The notes under the pieces: generated by a model
The model's database searches: none
What the model was told of the DNA's origin: nothing
What the model saw: only the letters and a program-made list of their open reading frames with translations
Made by a program: the position numbers and the translations under genes
NCBI GenBank assembly: GCA_016871395.1
Contig: VFYV01000002.1
Location: 1-64,000, forward strand
Direction: 5' to 3'
Origin: Actinomycetota bacterium
GTDB taxonomy: Bacteria; Actinomycetota; Acidimicrobiia; Acidimicrobiales; Ilumatobacteraceae
Length of the DNA: 64,000 nucleotides
Part shown: in pieces, positions 27,115-36,561 of the stretch
How positions within the stretch are numbered: the stretch's first letter is position 1
Layout of the letters: each line of letters begins with the position of its first letter

Positions 27115-27933
27115 TCAGCGGCGAATGCGCCCGGGGTACGCCGGTGCCAGATTCCCGTTCTCGTCGCGGACGTCGAACTGTTCCGACAGGTCCTCCACCC
27201 ACTGGATCGTGCCCGTGCGTTCCATCAGATCGGGTGCCACCACGAGGGCCGCGATGGCCCGACCGACGCCCAGAGTCGTCTGCGCCGTCGACAGATCACT
27301 GCCCCGCCTGCCGGCCCACTCCATGATGAACTCGGTGGCCACCGAGCCCGGGTAGATCGAGCAACAGGCGATCCCCTTGGACTTCAGCTCGAGGGCCATG
27401 TCGGCGCTCAGACGGTCGAGCCCGGCCTTGCCCGCGCCGTACGACGAGCTGAAATGATACGAACTGCCACCGGGCGACGACACGTTCATGATCGAACCGC
27501 CGGGTCCACCCTCGAACAACAACGGCGCCGCGTGCCACGACGCGACGTAATGCGCCCTCAGACCGATGCCCACTTGATCGTCCCAAATGCTGAGGGGGTG
27601 CTCCCAGAATCCTCCACCCCAGGCGGGCGGATCGGGGATCTTGTAGACGTTGTTCACCAAAACATGGATCTTGCCGGCCTCGGTGCGCACGCGATCGAAC
27701 AAATCGGCGATCTGGCGGTCGTCACCGTGGTCCACCCTCACGGGGATGCCGATACCTCCGGCATCGTTCACCATCTGGGCGGTGGTGTCGATGGTGAGCG
27801 CGCCGTCGCCGGTGTTGCGCCCGGTGATGTACACCGTGGCGCCCATCTCGCCCAGGGCGATCGCCGTGCCCCGACCGATACCGCGACTCGATCCGGTCAC
27901 GACCGCCGTCTTACCGGTCAGGCGGCCGGTCAC
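27115..27933 (-). CDS. SDR-family oxidoreductase (DHRS1-like)
   Basis: 272 residues, GTG start overlapping the upstream P450 stop in GTGA. The cofactor site is TGSSRGIG, followed by ITGRN, suggesting NADP preference. VLVNNVYKIPDPPAWGGGFWE is the insertion typical of the DHRS1-like SDRs. The catalytic Ser is in NVSSPGGSSY and the Tyr-x3-Lys is YGAGK. It is the last gene of the leftward operon with the PEP-utilizer protein, LLM oxidoreductase and P450. It probably oxidises the alcohol made by the P450 or reduces a ketone. Confidence 0.9.
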   Translation of the reverse strand: MTGRLTGKTAVVTGSSRGIGRGTAIALGEMGATVYITGRNTGDGALTIDTTAQMVNDAGGIGIPVRVDHGDDRQIADLFDRVRTEAGKIHVLVNNVYKIPDPPAWGGGFWEHPLSIWDDQVGIGLRAHYVASWHAAPLLFEGGPGGSIMNVSSPGGSSYHFSSSYGAGKAGLDRLSADMALELKSKGIACCSIYPGSVATEFIMEWAGRRGSDLSTAQTTLGVGRAIAALVVAPDLMERTGTIQWVEDLSEQFDVRDENGNLAPAYPGRIRR

Positions 27934-29201
27934 GAGGACACCTTGGCCGGGGTGAACTCGATTCCGAGGTTGGTGAGGCCGCGCAGCATGAAGCTCGGGA
28001 AGTACTCGAACCTGTTGTCGGATGTGAGCGAGAGGGTGTCGATCCGCTTGGACAATTCCTCGACGGCCACTCTGCCCTCCAATCGAGAGAGGTTCGCTCC
28101 GAGACAGAAGTGGATACCCTTACCGAAAGCCAGGTTGTCGCGCAGGTGTTCGCGATCGGGGTCGAAGGCATCGGGTCGGTCGTACAGATCCTCGTCGCGA
28201 TTGGCCGAGGCGAACACGATGATGATGCGCTGGCCCTTCTTCAGATCGACGCCGCCGAGCGTGGTGTCCTCGGTGACGATGCGCCACATACCCTGGGTGG
28301 GAGTGGACAGGCGAAGCGTCTCTTCCACCACGCGTTCCGCGCGACTCGGATCGGCCTTCAACTTCTCCCATTCGCCGGGGTTCTCCGCCAGGAGGCGAAT
28401 CATCTCGGTGAGTGTCTTCGTGGTGGTCTCGTTGCCGGCCACGAGAAGTTGTTGCACGATACTCAACATCTCGGGCATGTCGAGAGGACGGTTGTCGGTG
28501 ACTTCCGGGTCGTCGTCGTCGATGGTGGCGTTCAGGAGGTTGGTCAGCAGATCATCCTGGGGCTCGGCGCGGCGACGGTCGATTTGTTCGGCAAAGTAGT
28601 GCTGAAACTCGTTCACGCCGTATTCGGCCTTGATGCGATCATCGATCGAGATGTTGGTGCCGATACCCGCGATGGAGTCGTCGGACCAGCGTTTGAAGTC
28701 CGCCAAGCGGTCGTCAGGAACGTTCAACGCCTTGGCGATGACACGGACCGGCAGCGGCACGGCGAACTCCTCGACGAACTCGATGCGACCCTTGTCGATC
28801 CAGGATTCGATCAGCCCCACGGTGATCTCTCGGACCACCGGCTCCATCTCGGCGATCACTTTGGGGTGGAACGCACGCGACACCAATCGGCGATAACGAG
28901 TGTGCTCCGGCTGGTCGGCGGTGAGCATGGTCGGAACTCGGGGGTAACCCTTCGAGATCACTTCGGCGAAGCGCTCGCGCTCGGGGCCACTGAGCGGCAT
29001 ACCCGCTCCACCGAACATCGACGAGAACGTTCGGGGATCGCGCAGAACCTGCATCACGAGATCGTGCTTGGTCACCATGTGAACGCCGATACTCGCCACC
29101 GCGTGCACGGGAGCCTCCTCGCGCATCTTGGCGTAGTGCGGGAACGGACATTGTTGCGTGGTGGGGTCGAAGGGATTGAAGGTTGAAATATCGACGCTCA
29201 T
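27930..29201 (-). CDS. Cytochrome P450
   Basis: 423 residues from ATG 29201 with GGAGA upstream. The I-helix is VAGNETTTK, with Asn where His or Asp is common. ExxR is ETLRL, and the heme loop is FGKGIHFCLG with Cys366. The sequence resembles the P450 encoded at 33335-32046 (AGNETT, FASANRD, NxAFGxGxHFC), so these may be paralogues acting in series. It is the third gene of the leftward operon; the LLM gene ends 28 bases upstream. Confidence 0.94.
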   Translation of the reverse strand: MSVDISTFNPFDPTTQQCPFPHYAKMREEAPVHAVASIGVHMVTKHDLVMQVLRDPRTFSSMFGGAGMPLSGPERERFAEVISKGYPRVPTMLTADQPEHTRYRRLVSRAFHPKVIAEMEPVVREITVGLIESWIDKGRIEFVEEFAVPLPVRVIAKALNVPDDRLADFKRWSDDSIAGIGTNISIDDRIKAEYGVNEFQHYFAEQIDRRRAEPQDDLLTNLLNATIDDDDPEVTDNRPLDMPEMLSIVQQLLVAGNETTTKTLTEMIRLLAENPGEWEKLKADPSRAERVVEETLRLSTPTQGMWRIVTEDTTLGGVDLKKGQRIIIVFASANRDEDLYDRPDAFDPDREHLRDNLAFGKGIHFCLGANLSRLEGRVAVEELSKRIDTLSLTSDNRFEYFPSFMLRGLTNLGIEFTPAKVSS

Positions 29202-29229
29202 CTGATTCTCCGTGTCACTCGTTTTCACG

Positions 29230-32045: not shown

Positions 32046-33335
32046 TCACGCCAGGTCGGCCGTGATTCGCAAGCCGGTCAGACCCCGCAGGACGAAGGAA
32101 TCCCCGAAGCGGAATTCGTTGTCCGGGGCCAAACGGATGTTTCGCAGTGCTCCCACGAGATGGGTGATGGCGATTCGGGCCTCCGATCGCGCCAGACCCG
32201 CCCCAGGACAGAAGTGCTCGCCGTTCCCGAAAGCCAGATGTTCCTTCACGTTGGCCCGCTCCGGATCCACCTCGTCGGGAGACGCGAATTTGCAGTCGTC
32301 CCGGTTCGCCGAGGCGAACAACAGCCACAGGTGATCACCAGCCGGAATCCGCGTTCCGGCCACCTCCACGTCGACCTTGGCCTGCCGGAAGAGTCCCCCT
32401 ACCGGCGCTTCGAGACGCAACATCTCCTCGACGAGACCCTCGATCAATGTCGGCTCCACGCGAACCCGCTCCTGGAGGGCCGGATCCTCGGCCAGACGCC
32501 GAATGATGTTGGCGATGAGGTTCGTGGTGGTTTCGTTGCCCGCCACCAGGAACTGTTGCAACATCCCGAGTTGCTCATCGTCGGTCAGTTCCTCTCCGTC
32601 GATTTGCGCGTTGGCGATGTCGGACAGGAGGTCATCGGTCGGAGACACCTTGCGGGCCGCGATCTGGGCCAAGAAATACTCGGTGAACTCCTTGGTGGAA
32701 ATCAGAAAACCTCTGACCTGCTCCACCGAGGGCGAGTGATTGCCCACCGGCATCACGATGTCGTCCGACCAGCGCTTGAAGGTGGCCAGATCGTCGTCGG
32801 CGACCCCGAGGGCCATGGCGATGATGGCCATCGGCAGGCCCACGGCGAACCGCTTCACGACGTCGGACGCGCCCGATGCCGACAGATCGGCGACGACATC
32901 GGCGAGCAAGCGCTCGGTGACCTCGACCATGGCCGGCTCCATGGCGCGGATGCGATCGGGTCGAAAGGCCGGGTTCACCAACTTGCGCTGACGACGGTGA
33001 TCCGGCGGGTCGGCATTCAGCAGAACCGCCACCCGCCCGCGCGTCATGGTGTTCGATCCCAGAACCGCCGCCATCTCGGGATCCTTCATGAGTTCCATGA
33101 TCCCGGCCATCAGGGCCTCCCCGGCCTGCGCCGGACCGGTGGGACTGAGACTGGAATAGCGCTCGGTGTCGCGCAGGATCGCTCGGACGTCGTCGTAACG
33201 GGAGATGATCCAGGCCCCCAGATCGGCGTTGAAGGGCACTCCGTCGGCCTCCCGCAGGCTGGCGAAAATGGGATATGGGCAGGCGATGGCCCCCTGCTCT
33301 CGGTGGATCAGTTGGTCGACGGATTGCCCCGACAT
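32046..33335 (-). CDS. Cytochrome P450
   Basis: 429 residues from ATG 33335; G-rich GGGGGG just upstream serves as ribosome-binding site. The I-helix is VAGNETTTN, ExxR is EMLRL, and the heme loop is FGNGEHFCPG with Cys376. The Pro after the Cys is less common than Leu but seen in other P450s. An insertion near residues 70-90 (GEALMAGIMELMKDPEMAA) lengthens the B-C region, which usually shapes substrate entry. It diverges from the molybdopterin oxidoreductase operon and shares with it operator copy 2. Confidence 0.93.
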   Translation of the reverse strand: MSGQSVDQLIHREQGAIACPYPIFASLREADGVPFNADLGAWIISRYDDVRAILRDTERYSSLSPTGPAQAGEALMAGIMELMKDPEMAAVLGSNTMTRGRVAVLLNADPPDHRRQRKLVNPAFRPDRIRAMEPAMVEVTERLLADVVADLSASGASDVVKRFAVGLPMAIIAMALGVADDDLATFKRWSDDIVMPVGNHSPSVEQVRGFLISTKEFTEYFLAQIAARKVSPTDDLLSDIANAQIDGEELTDDEQLGMLQQFLVAGNETTTNLIANIIRRLAEDPALQERVRVEPTLIEGLVEEMLRLEAPVGGLFRQAKVDVEVAGTRIPAGDHLWLLFASANRDDCKFASPDEVDPERANVKEHLAFGNGEHFCPGAGLARSEARIAITHLVGALRNIRLAPDNEFRFGDSFVLRGLTGLRITADLA

Positions 33336-33387
33336 ATGCCCCCCAGTCGAGACGAGGAACGTTTCGCTCGTTTCGGTACGGCGCAAT

Positions 33388-33405
33388 CTAATCGCTGGGT
33401 TAGTT
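33388..33405. promoter_or_regulatory. Palindromic operator copy 2 in divergent P450/oxidoreductase region
   Basis: CTAATCGCTGGGTTAGTT lies 53 bases from the P450 start and 43 bases from the oxidoreductase start. It matches the reverse complement of copy 1 at 16 of 18 positions, so one regulator probably controls three transcription units. Confidence 0.72.
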
Positions 33406-33447
33406 TGTGGGTGCCTCGTGGGACCGAGGCGAACGAGGGGGGCTCGT

Positions 33448-35625
33448 ATGACTGTCGCCGACCACGAGCAAACCACCGCACAGGGCATGGAGACGCACCA
33501 CACGTTCTGTCGGTTTTGCCACGCGAGTTGCCCCATCGAGGTCGACGTGGCCGGCGGGCAAGCGGTGTCGATTCGTGGAGTCCCCGAGGACCCGCTTTTC
33601 GCCGGTTACACCTGCATCAAGGGTCGCCAGATTCCCGAGCAGATGACGCACCCCAGTCGTCTGCGTTCGTCGATGCGCCGCCGAGCCGATGGGACCTTCG
33701 AGGAGATCTCGTCGCGAGATGCCATGGACGCCATCGGTGCCGAATTGAAGCGCATTCTCGACACCTACGGTCCTCGGGCCATCGCGTCGTACACCGGAAC
33801 CGGCGGCTACCAGAACTCGCTCGCCGTCCCCGCCGCGCGCGCCTTCCATCAGGGTCTCGAATCCCCCTCGTTCTACACGTCGGTCACCATCGACCAACCG
33901 GCCAAGGCCACTGCGCCGTTCCGCGTCGGCATCTGGGAAGCCGGCTACCACAACTTCAGCGATGCCGACGTGTTGTTGGCCATCGGATACAACCCGATGG
34001 TCTCCAGTTTCTCGCCGGTGGGCGGTCTGCAAGGAACCAATCCGTACGTGGTGCTGCGCGAGGCGAAGAAGCGCGGCATGAAACTCATCGTCATCGACCC
34101 GCGCCGTACCGAATTCGCCACCCAAGCCGACATCCACCTGGCCCCCAAGCCCGGCGAGGACCCCACCTTGATGGCCGGCATTTTGAAGGTCGTCATCGAC
34201 GAGGGCTTGTTCGATCACGAGTTCTGCGAGAAGTGGGTGGCCGATCTGGAGCAACTGGCCGCCGCCGTGGCGACCTTCGATCTGGCTTACGTCTCCAAAC
34301 GGTGCGACGTTCCCGCCGACGACATCGTGGCCGCCGCCCGTATGTTCGCCACCGCCGGAAAGGGAACCAGCGGGACCGGAACCGGCCCCAGCATGGCCCC
34401 GCACTCCAGCCTCACCGAACACCTCTCCATCGTTCTCAACACCATCTGTGGGCGTGTGAACCGAGAGGGTGACACCTTGGAGAGCGGGTACTTCCTGTAT
34501 CCCGAGACCCCGCGACGAGCCCAGGTGCACGCCGCGCGTCCGCCGGCCACCGGCGCGAACCAACGCGTACGAAACCTGCGCGGCATTCGCGGGGAAATGC
34601 TCACGACGGCACTGGCCGAGGAGATCCTGAACGAAGGCGAGGGCCGTGTGCGGGCTCTCATCGTCAGTGGCGGCAATCCGGTGGTGGCCTGGCCCGACCA
34701 GGAACTCACCATCAAGGCGATGGAAGACCTCGAGTTGCTCGTCGTCATCGACCATCGCATGTCAGCCACCGCCGAGTTCGCCGACTACGTGATCGCACCG
34801 ACTCTGTCGCTCGAGCGTGCCGACGTGCCCCACCTCATGGACCGTTGGTTCCGAGCGCCCTACACCAACTACACCGAGGCCATCACCCCCCGCATCGGCG
34901 ACGTCATGAACGAGTGGGAGGTCTTCTGGGAATTGGCCCGCCGCCTGAACTCACCGTTGCCCCTCGCCGGTGGCAACGCACCGATGGAACGCCTCCCGAG
35001 CGATGATGAGATGCTGGATCTGGTGTACGCCGGATCCCGCATGCCCATGGACGAGGTGCGACGCAATCGCATGAAGGTGCACCCCGACAAGGCCATGGTC
35101 GTGCAGGCCGCGGATCCGACCTGTACGGCCAAGTTCACCGTCGCTCCCGACGACATCGTCGATGAGATGCGCTTGGTCGTGACCGAGGGAGATTCGGCCG
35201 CCGCTCTCGGCGTCGATCCCGCGACGTACCCCTTCCGTTTGGTCAGTCGCCGTTTGAGGCACGTGCTGAATTCGTTCGGCTCGGAGTTGTCGGTGCTCGG
35301 GTCCAAAGGCAGCACCAACCCCGCCTACATGAATCCCGACGACATGGAGCAGTACGACCTGGCCGACGGTGATCTGGTGGAGATTTCCAGCCCACGAGCC
35401 TCGTTGCAAGCGATCGTGGAGTCGGCGCCCGACGTGCGCCGAGGCGTGATCTCCATGGCCCACTCGTGGGGAGGCTCCTCACTCACCGATGAGAAAGTGC
35501 GCGACATCGGCACGCCGACCAGTCGGCTGGTTTCGGTGGACAAGGGCTACGACTTGGTGAACGGTATGGTGGTCCAGAGCGCGATTCCCGTTCGCATCAG
35601 CGCGCTCGAGCAAACCAACCGCTGA
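33448..35625 (+). CDS. Molybdopterin (bis-MGD) oxidoreductase, formate dehydrogenase-like
   Basis: 725 residues from ATG 33448, with GGGGGG before it. The N-terminal [4Fe-4S] ligands are C21-x2-C24-x3-C28-x27-C56. It continues with GTGGYQNS, DVLLAIGYNPM, VIDPRRTEFATQADIHLAPKPGEDPTL (MGD binding) and a C-terminal molydopterin-dinucleotide domain (SRRLRHVLNSFG). At the usual metal-ligand region (about 145-160: SFYTSVTIDQ) no Cys or Sec is present, so classical formate dehydrogenase activity is doubtful. It has no twin-arginine signal, hence cytoplasmic. It heads an operon with the selenoprotein candidate and an epoxide-hydrolase-like gene. Confidence 0.9.
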   Translation: MTVADHEQTTAQGMETHHTFCRFCHASCPIEVDVAGGQAVSIRGVPEDPLFAGYTCIKGRQIPEQMTHPSRLRSSMRRRADGTFEEISSRDAMDAIGAELKRILDTYGPRAIASYTGTGGYQNSLAVPAARAFHQGLESPSFYTSVTIDQPAKATAPFRVGIWEAGYHNFSDADVLLAIGYNPMVSSFSPVGGLQGTNPYVVLREAKKRGMKLIVIDPRRTEFATQADIHLAPKPGEDPTLMAGILKVVIDEGLFDHEFCEKWVADLEQLAAAVATFDLAYVSKRCDVPADDIVAAARMFATAGKGTSGTGTGPSMAPHSSLTEHLSIVLNTICGRVNREGDTLESGYFLYPETPRRAQVHAARPPATGANQRVRNLRGIRGEMLTTALAEEILNEGEGRVRALIVSGGNPVVAWPDQELTIKAMEDLELLVVIDHRMSATAEFADYVIAPTLSLERADVPHLMDRWFRAPYTNYTEAITPRIGDVMNEWEVFWELARRLNSPLPLAGGNAPMERLPSDDEMLDLVYAGSRMPMDEVRRNRMKVHPDKAMVVQAADPTCTAKFTVAPDDIVDEMRLVVTEGDSAAALGVDPATYPFRLVSRRLRHVLNSFGSELSVLGSKGSTNPAYMNPDDMEQYDLADGDLVEISSPRASLQAIVESAPDVRRGVISMAHSWGGSSLTDEKVRDIGTPTSRLVSVDKGYDLVNGMVVQSAIPVRISALEQTNR

Positions 35626-35642: not shown

Positions 35643-36152
35643 ATGGCGAGACTGGAAGTTCCCGACGGAGAGGGCCTGGAAGCTCATCGCCTCTGGGCGC
35701 TGGCACCCCACATGGGGGCGGGCATGGCCGCCATGAGCGAGGCCGTGTACGTGAAATCGAGCCTGAGCATCAGGGAGCGCGAGGTGGCCCGCATGCGGAT
35801 CGCCCAGCTCAATCAGTGCGTTGTTTGAATGAACACTCGCGCCGCATCGGCGATGCGGCAAGGACTCGATGACGAAGCGTACAACTCGGTTCAGCATTAC
35901 CACGACCACCCGAACTTCACCGACCGCGAACGACTCGCCGCCGAATACGCCGAGCGCTTCGCCATCGACCACACCGCCGTCGATGACGACCTCTGGAATC
36001 GTCTGCGAGCGCGATTCAGCGACACCGAGCTTTTGGAGCTCACCGTGACCATCGGTTTCTGCGTCGGCATGGGACGCGCCTACCAAGTACTCGACATCGC
36101 CCGCGATTTCGACGTGCTCTGGAGCAAGGAACCGCCGGCGGCGAACAGTTGA
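35643..36152 (+). CDS. AhpD/CMD-like protein with in-frame TGA, candidate selenoprotein (CxxU)
   Basis: 169 residues if TGA 35826-35828 is read as selenocysteine. Upstream codons give EREVARMRIAQLNQCVV; downstream, in the same frame, MNTRAASAMRQGLDDEAY follows. Relatives have CxxC here, so TGA replaces the second Cys: C59-V-V-U62. Only ATG 35643 has a ribosome-binding site (GAGAGG); the ATG right after TGA has none. A perfect 8-bp stem with a GGC loop starts 12 bases after the TGA, as a bacterial SECIS should. The rest (FTDRERLAAEYAERF) is normal for carboxymuconolactone decarboxylase/AhpD-like thiol peroxidase partners. Alternatives are a nonsense mutation or read error. Needs SelA/SelB/SelC/SelD elsewhere. 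Confidence 0.8.
35841..35859 (+). promoter_or_regulatory. Putative bacterial SECIS stem-loop
   Basis: GCCGCATC-GGC-GATGCGGC is a perfect 8-bp stem with a GGC triloop. The loop starts 20 bases after the TGA, inside the range known for SelB-binding SECIS elements, and its first two bases are G. It lies within the reading frame, as bacterial SECIS elements do. Confidence 0.72.
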
Positions 36153-36189: not shown

Positions 36190-36561
36190 ATGAATCCACT
36201 GGAAACGGTCAACGCATTCATCGCCGCTCTCGAGCGCCTCGACGTGGATGCCGCCTGCGCCCTCGTCGCTGACGGTTGCGAATACGACAACGTTCCTTTG
36301 ATGAAGGTGTACGGACCCGAGGGCATAAAAAGTGTCCTCGGGCCGATGTTCGGCGACTGCACCGAAGTCGACTGGGTCGTGCATCGCGAGGCCGCCAGCG
36401 GCTCCACCGTGTTCAATGAGCGCACGGATCGATTCAAGATGTCCTGGGGCTGGTTGGAGTTGCCGGTCAACGGCGTGTGGGAAGTGGTCGACGGCAAGAT
36501 CACCCTGTGGCGCGACTACTTCGACGCACAGAGTTACTTCAAACAGCTGCCCGGTTCCTGA
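36190..36561 (+). CDS. Limonene-1,2-epoxide hydrolase-like enzyme
   Basis: 123 residues, ATG with GAAGGAGA upstream. The SnoaL/NTF2-like cone carries all residues of the limonene-epoxide hydrolase site: Tyr32 and Asn34 in EYDNVPL, Arg78 and Asp80 in NERTDRF, and Asp109 in WRDYFD. These activate water for one-step epoxide opening. The short length is slightly under the known enzymes, mostly at the N-terminus. It is the third gene of the operon with the oxidoreductase and selenoprotein candidate, 37 bases from the latter. An epoxide made by one of the neighbouring P450s is a natural substrate, which is inference. Confidence 0.85.
   Translation: MNPLETVNAFIAALERLDVDAACALVADGCEYDNVPLMKVYGPEGIKSVLGPMFGDCTEVDWVVHREAASGSTVFNERTDRFKMSWGWLELPVNGVWEVVDGKITLWRDYFDAQSYFKQLPGS

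Follow-up and report, generated by a model that had tools for sequence, protein, structure and literature searches.

The question raised by this locus is whether a gene seemingly interrupted by a stop codon is in fact whole. The gene lies in the window, the 64,000-nucleotide stretch of Ilumatobacteraceae DNA that was analysed, and the standard code makes it fall apart: in a standard-code list of open reading frames with a limit of 80 residues, only its rear 107 residues appear. A sequence-only reading had named it a candidate selenoprotein, and this proposal gains support from the selenocysteine genes of the genome, the conservation of the TGA and the evolution of the hairpin behind it. The gene almost certainly (probability about 0.95) encodes an intact selenocysteine redox protein of the AhpD-like/CMD superfamily, 169 residues in length. 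The features concerned are as follows.

35643..36152, plus strand: CMD/AhpD-like gene, predicted selenoprotein of 169 residues with Sec at 62 (frame, Pfam, orthologs)
35826..35828, plus strand: TGA codon 62, predicted to be read as selenocysteine in C59-V-V-U62 (TGT or TGC in Cys-type orthologs)
35775..35840, plus strand: active-site row E47...C59-x-x-U62-x-x-x-R66, codons 45-66 (alignment, locus counts)
35841..35859, plus strand: SECIS-like hairpin, 8-bp stem and GGC loop (synonymous constraint, covariation; not kept in Cys-type homologues)

The internal TGA and the frame behind it

Translation begins at the ATG at 35643 and ends at a terminal TGA, codon 170 (36150-36152); the frame contains a single internal TGA, at codon 62. 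The Pfam CMD domain (PF02627) matches residues 22-104, across this TGA (E 2.8e-9, 37.3 bits vs a cut-off of 23), and the earlier description of one CMD/AhpD-like domain split at the second Cys of a CxxC motif is exact in its coordinates. The UGA at codon 62 would be decoded as selenocysteine by SelB with tRNA-Sec, and the hairpin at 35841-35859, which is supported by sequence evolution, would direct this decoding.

A scan of a contig collection yielded 13 loci, all 13 with TGA at codon 62 and no further stop within the match. In a family sample of 200 genomes, close orthologs (rows with E up to 4.5e-64) are of the TGA type in 23 and lack the stop in 4. The Cys homologues that the sequence-only reading had suggested looking for at position 62 do exist, since the four stop-free orthologs, all distinct, carry TGT or TGC there. 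The 40 ortholog rows reduce to 29 distinct sequences (25 TGA and 4 Cys). In the TGA alignment (L052 without its N-terminal part), all 25 keep the TGA of codon 62 and are otherwise free of stops as far as the alignment runs, to codon 165, although they reach down to 63% identity. As to a misread TGC or TGT at 35826-35828, the TGA recurs in separately assembled genomes. The relatives share one TGA and do not have independent stops elsewhere in the gene, a pattern that had been named as one that would tell against a selenoprotein. The ratio pN/pS in the TGA orthologs is 0.22 before the TGA and 0.25 behind it, which argues that the rear part is under purifying selection as protein. Over 78 aligned loci, a count that includes copies of one genome from two collections, position 62 is TGA in 53, Cys in 22, Ala in 2 and a gap in 1.

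By the selenoprotein gene, the closest relatives of the window are records named Ilumatobacteraceae, Acidimicrobiales and Actinomycetota bacteria (94, 94 and 93%, respectively). A record titled Bifidobacterium breve (L022) also carries the gene, at 84% identity, together with its neighbourhood, and is probably a mislabelled bin. The codon just before the TGA (35823-35825) is GTT in all 25 distinct TGA orthologs and GTG in all 4 Cys orthologs; the context upstream of the UGA may be under selection.

These results bear on two simpler accounts of the locus. A pseudogene, inactivated by a true nonsense mutation, would agree with the standard bacterial code, in which TGA is a stop (the gene's own terminator is also TGA), but the same TGA in 25 of 25 distinct orthologs, with no other stop, and the purifying selection behind it leave this account next to no credence. 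It is also exceedingly improbable that the locus makes two proteins, a 61-residue peptide and then a product restarted at an ATG behind the TGA (the 107-residue frame 35829-36152). Codon 63 in the window is indeed ATG, and the list of open reading frames includes the rear frame. However, this codon is CTG in 19 and ATG in only 6 of the 25 distinct TGA orthologs, which argues against a restart; moreover, the Cys-type orthologs are one continuous frame and the CMD domain spans the TGA.

The hairpin and the selenocysteine machinery

The hairpin consists of stem arms at 35841-35848 and 35852-35859 and a GGC loop at 35849-35851, with 20 bases between the TGA and the loop, precisely as first described from the letters. 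(It should be noted that its region, 61 nt, has an ordinary folding energy compared with shuffles, z = 0.04, so that energy is not used as evidence; Rfam, searched with the window and with the hairpin region, gave no match to a SECIS family.) The case for the hairpin rests on sequence evolution. Among the TGA orthologs, synonymous divergence (pS) is 0.20 over hairpin codons 66-72 vs 0.66 behind them. Position 3 of codon 67 pairs with position 2 of codon 72; these bases are C/G in 8, T/A in 16 and T/G in 1 of the 25 distinct sequences; hence the choice of Arg or Gln at codon 72 tracks the silent choice of GCC or GCT at codon 67, and the pair is C-G or U-A in 24 of 25 and U-G in 1. The state of this pair needs at least 3 changes on the tree.

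Covariation was measured in an alignment from the class that holds 28 of the 30 distinct 48-base TGA pieces (29 and the window). It left out L019, for which no reason is given, and L079, which has its hairpin in another register; it kept L107, L108 and L115, which are partly out of register, and it never included the remote paralogues L080, L081, L083, L085-L089 and L091, whose hairpins, by eye, lie in other registers. In these 28 rows, 94.6% of the cells are paired, and six of the eight stem pairs change on both sides, with 17 such cells vs a shuffled mean of 3.6. Six slid registers all score lower than the hairpin register on all five covariation measures. The number of further pair types, 8 vs 6.5 in shuffles, is not beyond chance (78 of 500 shuffles reach it). 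RNAalifold recovers 6 of these 8 pairs unguided, and loop column 24 is G in 28 of 28 rows, a small apical loop with G being present just behind the UGA. As a control, the same columns in 22 Cys-type homologues are paired in 42.0% of cells vs 41.0% when shuffled. Judged from these alignments, the hairpin and the TGA go together, and the Sec forms, which have the hairpin, and the Cys forms, which lack it, constitute a natural experiment on Sec-Cys exchange.

The assembly to which the window belongs (1.95 Mb in 43 contigs, rated 87% complete) encodes SelA at C4:73776-74828 (397 bits vs an NCBIfam cut-off of 267.9), SelB directly behind selA (309.8 vs 242.25), and, elsewhere, SelD (318.2 vs 125), which is one open frame with Cys. 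A genome lacking sel genes, which would have spoken against selenocysteine, is therefore not what is found: three of the four genes suggested for a search are present, and the fourth, selC (tRNA-Sec), is seen in the genus and not in this assembly. A search with RF01852 found no tRNA-Sec in the 87% complete assembly, nor did a scan of the sequence ahead of selA reveal one; the assembly's five RF01852 matches were rejected, ARAGORN calling them tRNA-Gly, Cys, Trp, Ser and Gly. Of the 24 genomes in the genus search, 20 carry a tRNA-Sec of 91-92 bases that scores 65.0-68.5 bits, and ARAGORN calls all 20 of these loci tRNA-SeC with anticodon tca. The 3,092 bases around one such gene (in G103) have a single match in the window's assembly, 89 bases at 72%. 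Since these surroundings are also missing there, the gap is best explained by a missing part of the assembly.

The co-occurrence of the TGA form with SelA was followed at two levels. A class sample of 296 genomes contains 65 with a match at E up to 1e-15, of which 16 have at least one TGA form and 49 have only stop-free forms (some of the 49, G001 and G012, hold weaker, more remote TGA matches). SelA is present in 15 of the 16 vs 28 of the 49 (Fisher p 0.007, shared ancestry ignored), and in 11 of 11 vs 23 of 37 when the sample is restricted to genomes with completeness of 90% or more and contamination of 5% or less (p 0.02, again ignoring shared ancestry); the TGA-form genome without a good SelA match is G375. 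Of all 296 class genomes, 203 have SelA above the cut-off. A good SelA match accompanies the close TGA ortholog in 21 of 23 genomes of the family sample; in the other two it is weak (G103) or absent (G184), and both have tRNA-Sec. Yet SelA is common in the family anyway, exceeding the cut-off in 150 of 200 genomes, including the 4 with close Cys-type orthologs, and its co-occurrence at this level therefore carries little weight. A further genome, G163, has no good SelA match, and its listed TGA match, at 25% identity, was not reproduced by tblastn.

Decoding of the UGA with a selenium-free amino acid, be it Cys or another, would be in keeping with the Cys that homologues have at position 62. 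It is nevertheless highly improbable, given SelA and SelD in the genome and a hairpin that is kept in the TGA forms and not in the Cys forms.

More remote homologues (22-46% identity) extend the picture. Twelve of 21 searched loci gave a TGA-bearing match, each exactly at position 62; L094, L096 and L097 gave only a stop-free match, and for L082, L084, L090, L092, L093 and L095 there was no match with an E of 0.01 or lower. For 9 of 20 remote stretches, a TGA match listed earlier was not reproduced. Eight remote CMD homologues (L080, L081, L085-L089 and L091) have their own TGA at position 62 and a different hairpin, with the loop GGTC in 8 of 8, and are probably further selenoprotein subfamilies. 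On the tree of Sec and Cys forms, only 6 of the 27 inner branches carry a star; the best tree requires 2 changes of the Sec/Cys label, 1 of which is forced by starred branches. SelA is common in a class of mostly uncultured actinobacteria, yet the papers searched show little on selenocysteine there, and none of those listed for Acidimicrobiia, Ilumatobacter or metagenome-assembled actinobacteria treats the subject, judged by title.

Active site and genomic neighbourhood

Among solved chains, the best match to the protein is PA0269 of Pseudomonas aeruginosa (2o4d, E 2.8e-12), to which E47, C59 and U62 align at Glu36, Cys48 and Cys51, and R66 at His55. Cys48, Cys51 and His55 are called invariant among the AhpD-like structures compared in the account of PA0269, in which His137 of M. 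tuberculosis AhpD is the counterpart of His55 (PMC3141380). Here, the His four residues behind the second Cys is not present. Every one of the 75 loci that have Sec (53) or Cys (22) at position 62 has E47, C59 and R66. As the Arg is also found in the Cys forms, Sec does not just make up for the missing His. Arg66, standing where AhpD has its relay His, may stabilise the selenolate; by analogy with peroxiredoxins, it could stabilise a thiolate or a selenolate. By homology with PA0269, the row E47...C59-V-V-U62-M-N-T-R66 probably sits on a helical hairpin. A thiol/selenol redox cycle is the likely chemistry: U62 would attack a peroxide or disulfide substrate and C59 would then resolve the selenenylsulfide. 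The AhpD-like peroxidase family is described as all-helical, with two helices forming the core (PMC3141380). An AlphaFold2 model built with 9 close sequences is all-helical but poor (mean pLDDT 48.0).

What such a cycle might serve is suggested by the neighbouring genes.

33448..35625, plus strand: molybdopterin oxidoreductase; open frame from 33205, probable start 33448, ends 17 bases before the selenoprotein start
36190..36561, plus strand: limonene-epoxide-hydrolase/SnoaL-like gene, downstream of the selenoprotein gene
27930-29228 and 32046-33536, minus strand: two P450 genes, near the molybdopterin oxidoreductase

The sequence-only reading had placed the protein in a molybdoenzyme/P450 operon. 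The link to the molybdenum enzyme holds, being co-directional and conserved; the P450 part falls away, since both P450 genes are on the minus strand. Of 39 close-ortholog loci (L014-L052, copies included), 36 have the molybdenum enzyme upstream in the same orientation, about 1.3 kb away in L044 and about 0.9 kb in L052, and Cys-type loci (L041, L042, L045 and L051) are among those linked. It was not found in the fetched stretches of L043, L048 and L049. Downstream, the SnoaL/LEH-like gene is present at loci from the window's genus and at the 13 loci of the contig collection; at loci of other genera in this set it was not found.

The nearest solved chain to the molybdenum enzyme is acetylene hydratase (2e7z, E 2.6e-37), with formate dehydrogenases also near. 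These matches do not suffice to name a substrate: among the listed NCBIfam matches, 25 of 25 are below cut-off, and the likeness to 2e7z is not enough. Also near the enzyme (33448-35625) are P450, luciferase-like and PEP-utilising-domain genes. A 57% homologue of it (L090:2-718) lies in the stretch around a remote TGA-type CMD match of G012, a match not reproduced in the remote-homologue search.

From the conserved linkage, the selenoprotein may serve the molybdopterin oxidoreductase just upstream, conceivably as a redox partner, a role to which we give somewhat less than an even chance. The competing view accepts selenocysteine and holds that the protein is a stand-alone AhpD-type peroxidase and not a partner of the molybdenum enzyme. 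It is a serious contender, if also rather short of even odds: the protein is AhpD-like with CxxU, and PA0269 has weak peroxidase activity (PMC3141380), but the relay His described there as invariant is Arg in every Sec and Cys locus, and the upstream molybdenum enzyme is conserved. The linkage to the molybdenum enzyme, for its part, offers a conserved and testable partner. A bolder proposal, which we regard as doubtful, is that the E...CxxU/CxxC...R clade is a dedicated selenol/thiol redox or maturation partner of the neighbouring molybdopterin oxidoreductase and not a peroxidase; it would then be a new functional class, with Sec and Cys forms interchangeable within one genus.

Comparison with known selenoproteins

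CxxU selenoproteins of the AhpD-like and CMD-domain kinds were described from the Sargasso Sea in 2005, with 27 and 4 sequences, respectively (PMC1088965). The GOS survey of 2008 gives 299 for AhpD-like 1 (COG2128) and 70 for AhpD-like 2 (pfam02627), the latter commoner in nonmarine samples (PMC2398784), and AhpD-like/CMD CxxU selenoproteins are among those listed in a 2026 review (PMC13188914). Compared by description, the AhpD-like selenoproteins of the Sargasso Sea and GOS sets likewise have CxxU, an AhpD-like/CMD domain and a stem-loop just behind the UGA. Compared by domain and motif, the window's protein shares PF02627 and CxxU with the CMD domain-containing selenoprotein of the Sargasso Sea. 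It scores 39.4 bits with TIGR01926, the model given for the AhpD-like protein in the 2026 review, below the cut-off of 81.8. The best NCBIfam match is NF053654 (GroundWater_YciW, a YciW-related (seleno)protein; E 1.3e-19), of which it is not a member at 70.7 bits vs a cut-off of 310. With PA0269 and M. tuberculosis AhpD, the Glu and both catalytic Cys positions correspond; the differences are that their second Cys is Sec here and their relay His is Arg66.

Taken together, these comparisons give good support for placing the protein among the CxxU AhpD-like/CMD selenoproteins known since 2005 (PMC1088965). What is added to them is the spread through the class, the Sec and Cys forms side by side, the linkage to a molybdopterin oxidoreductase and the Arg at the position of the relay His.
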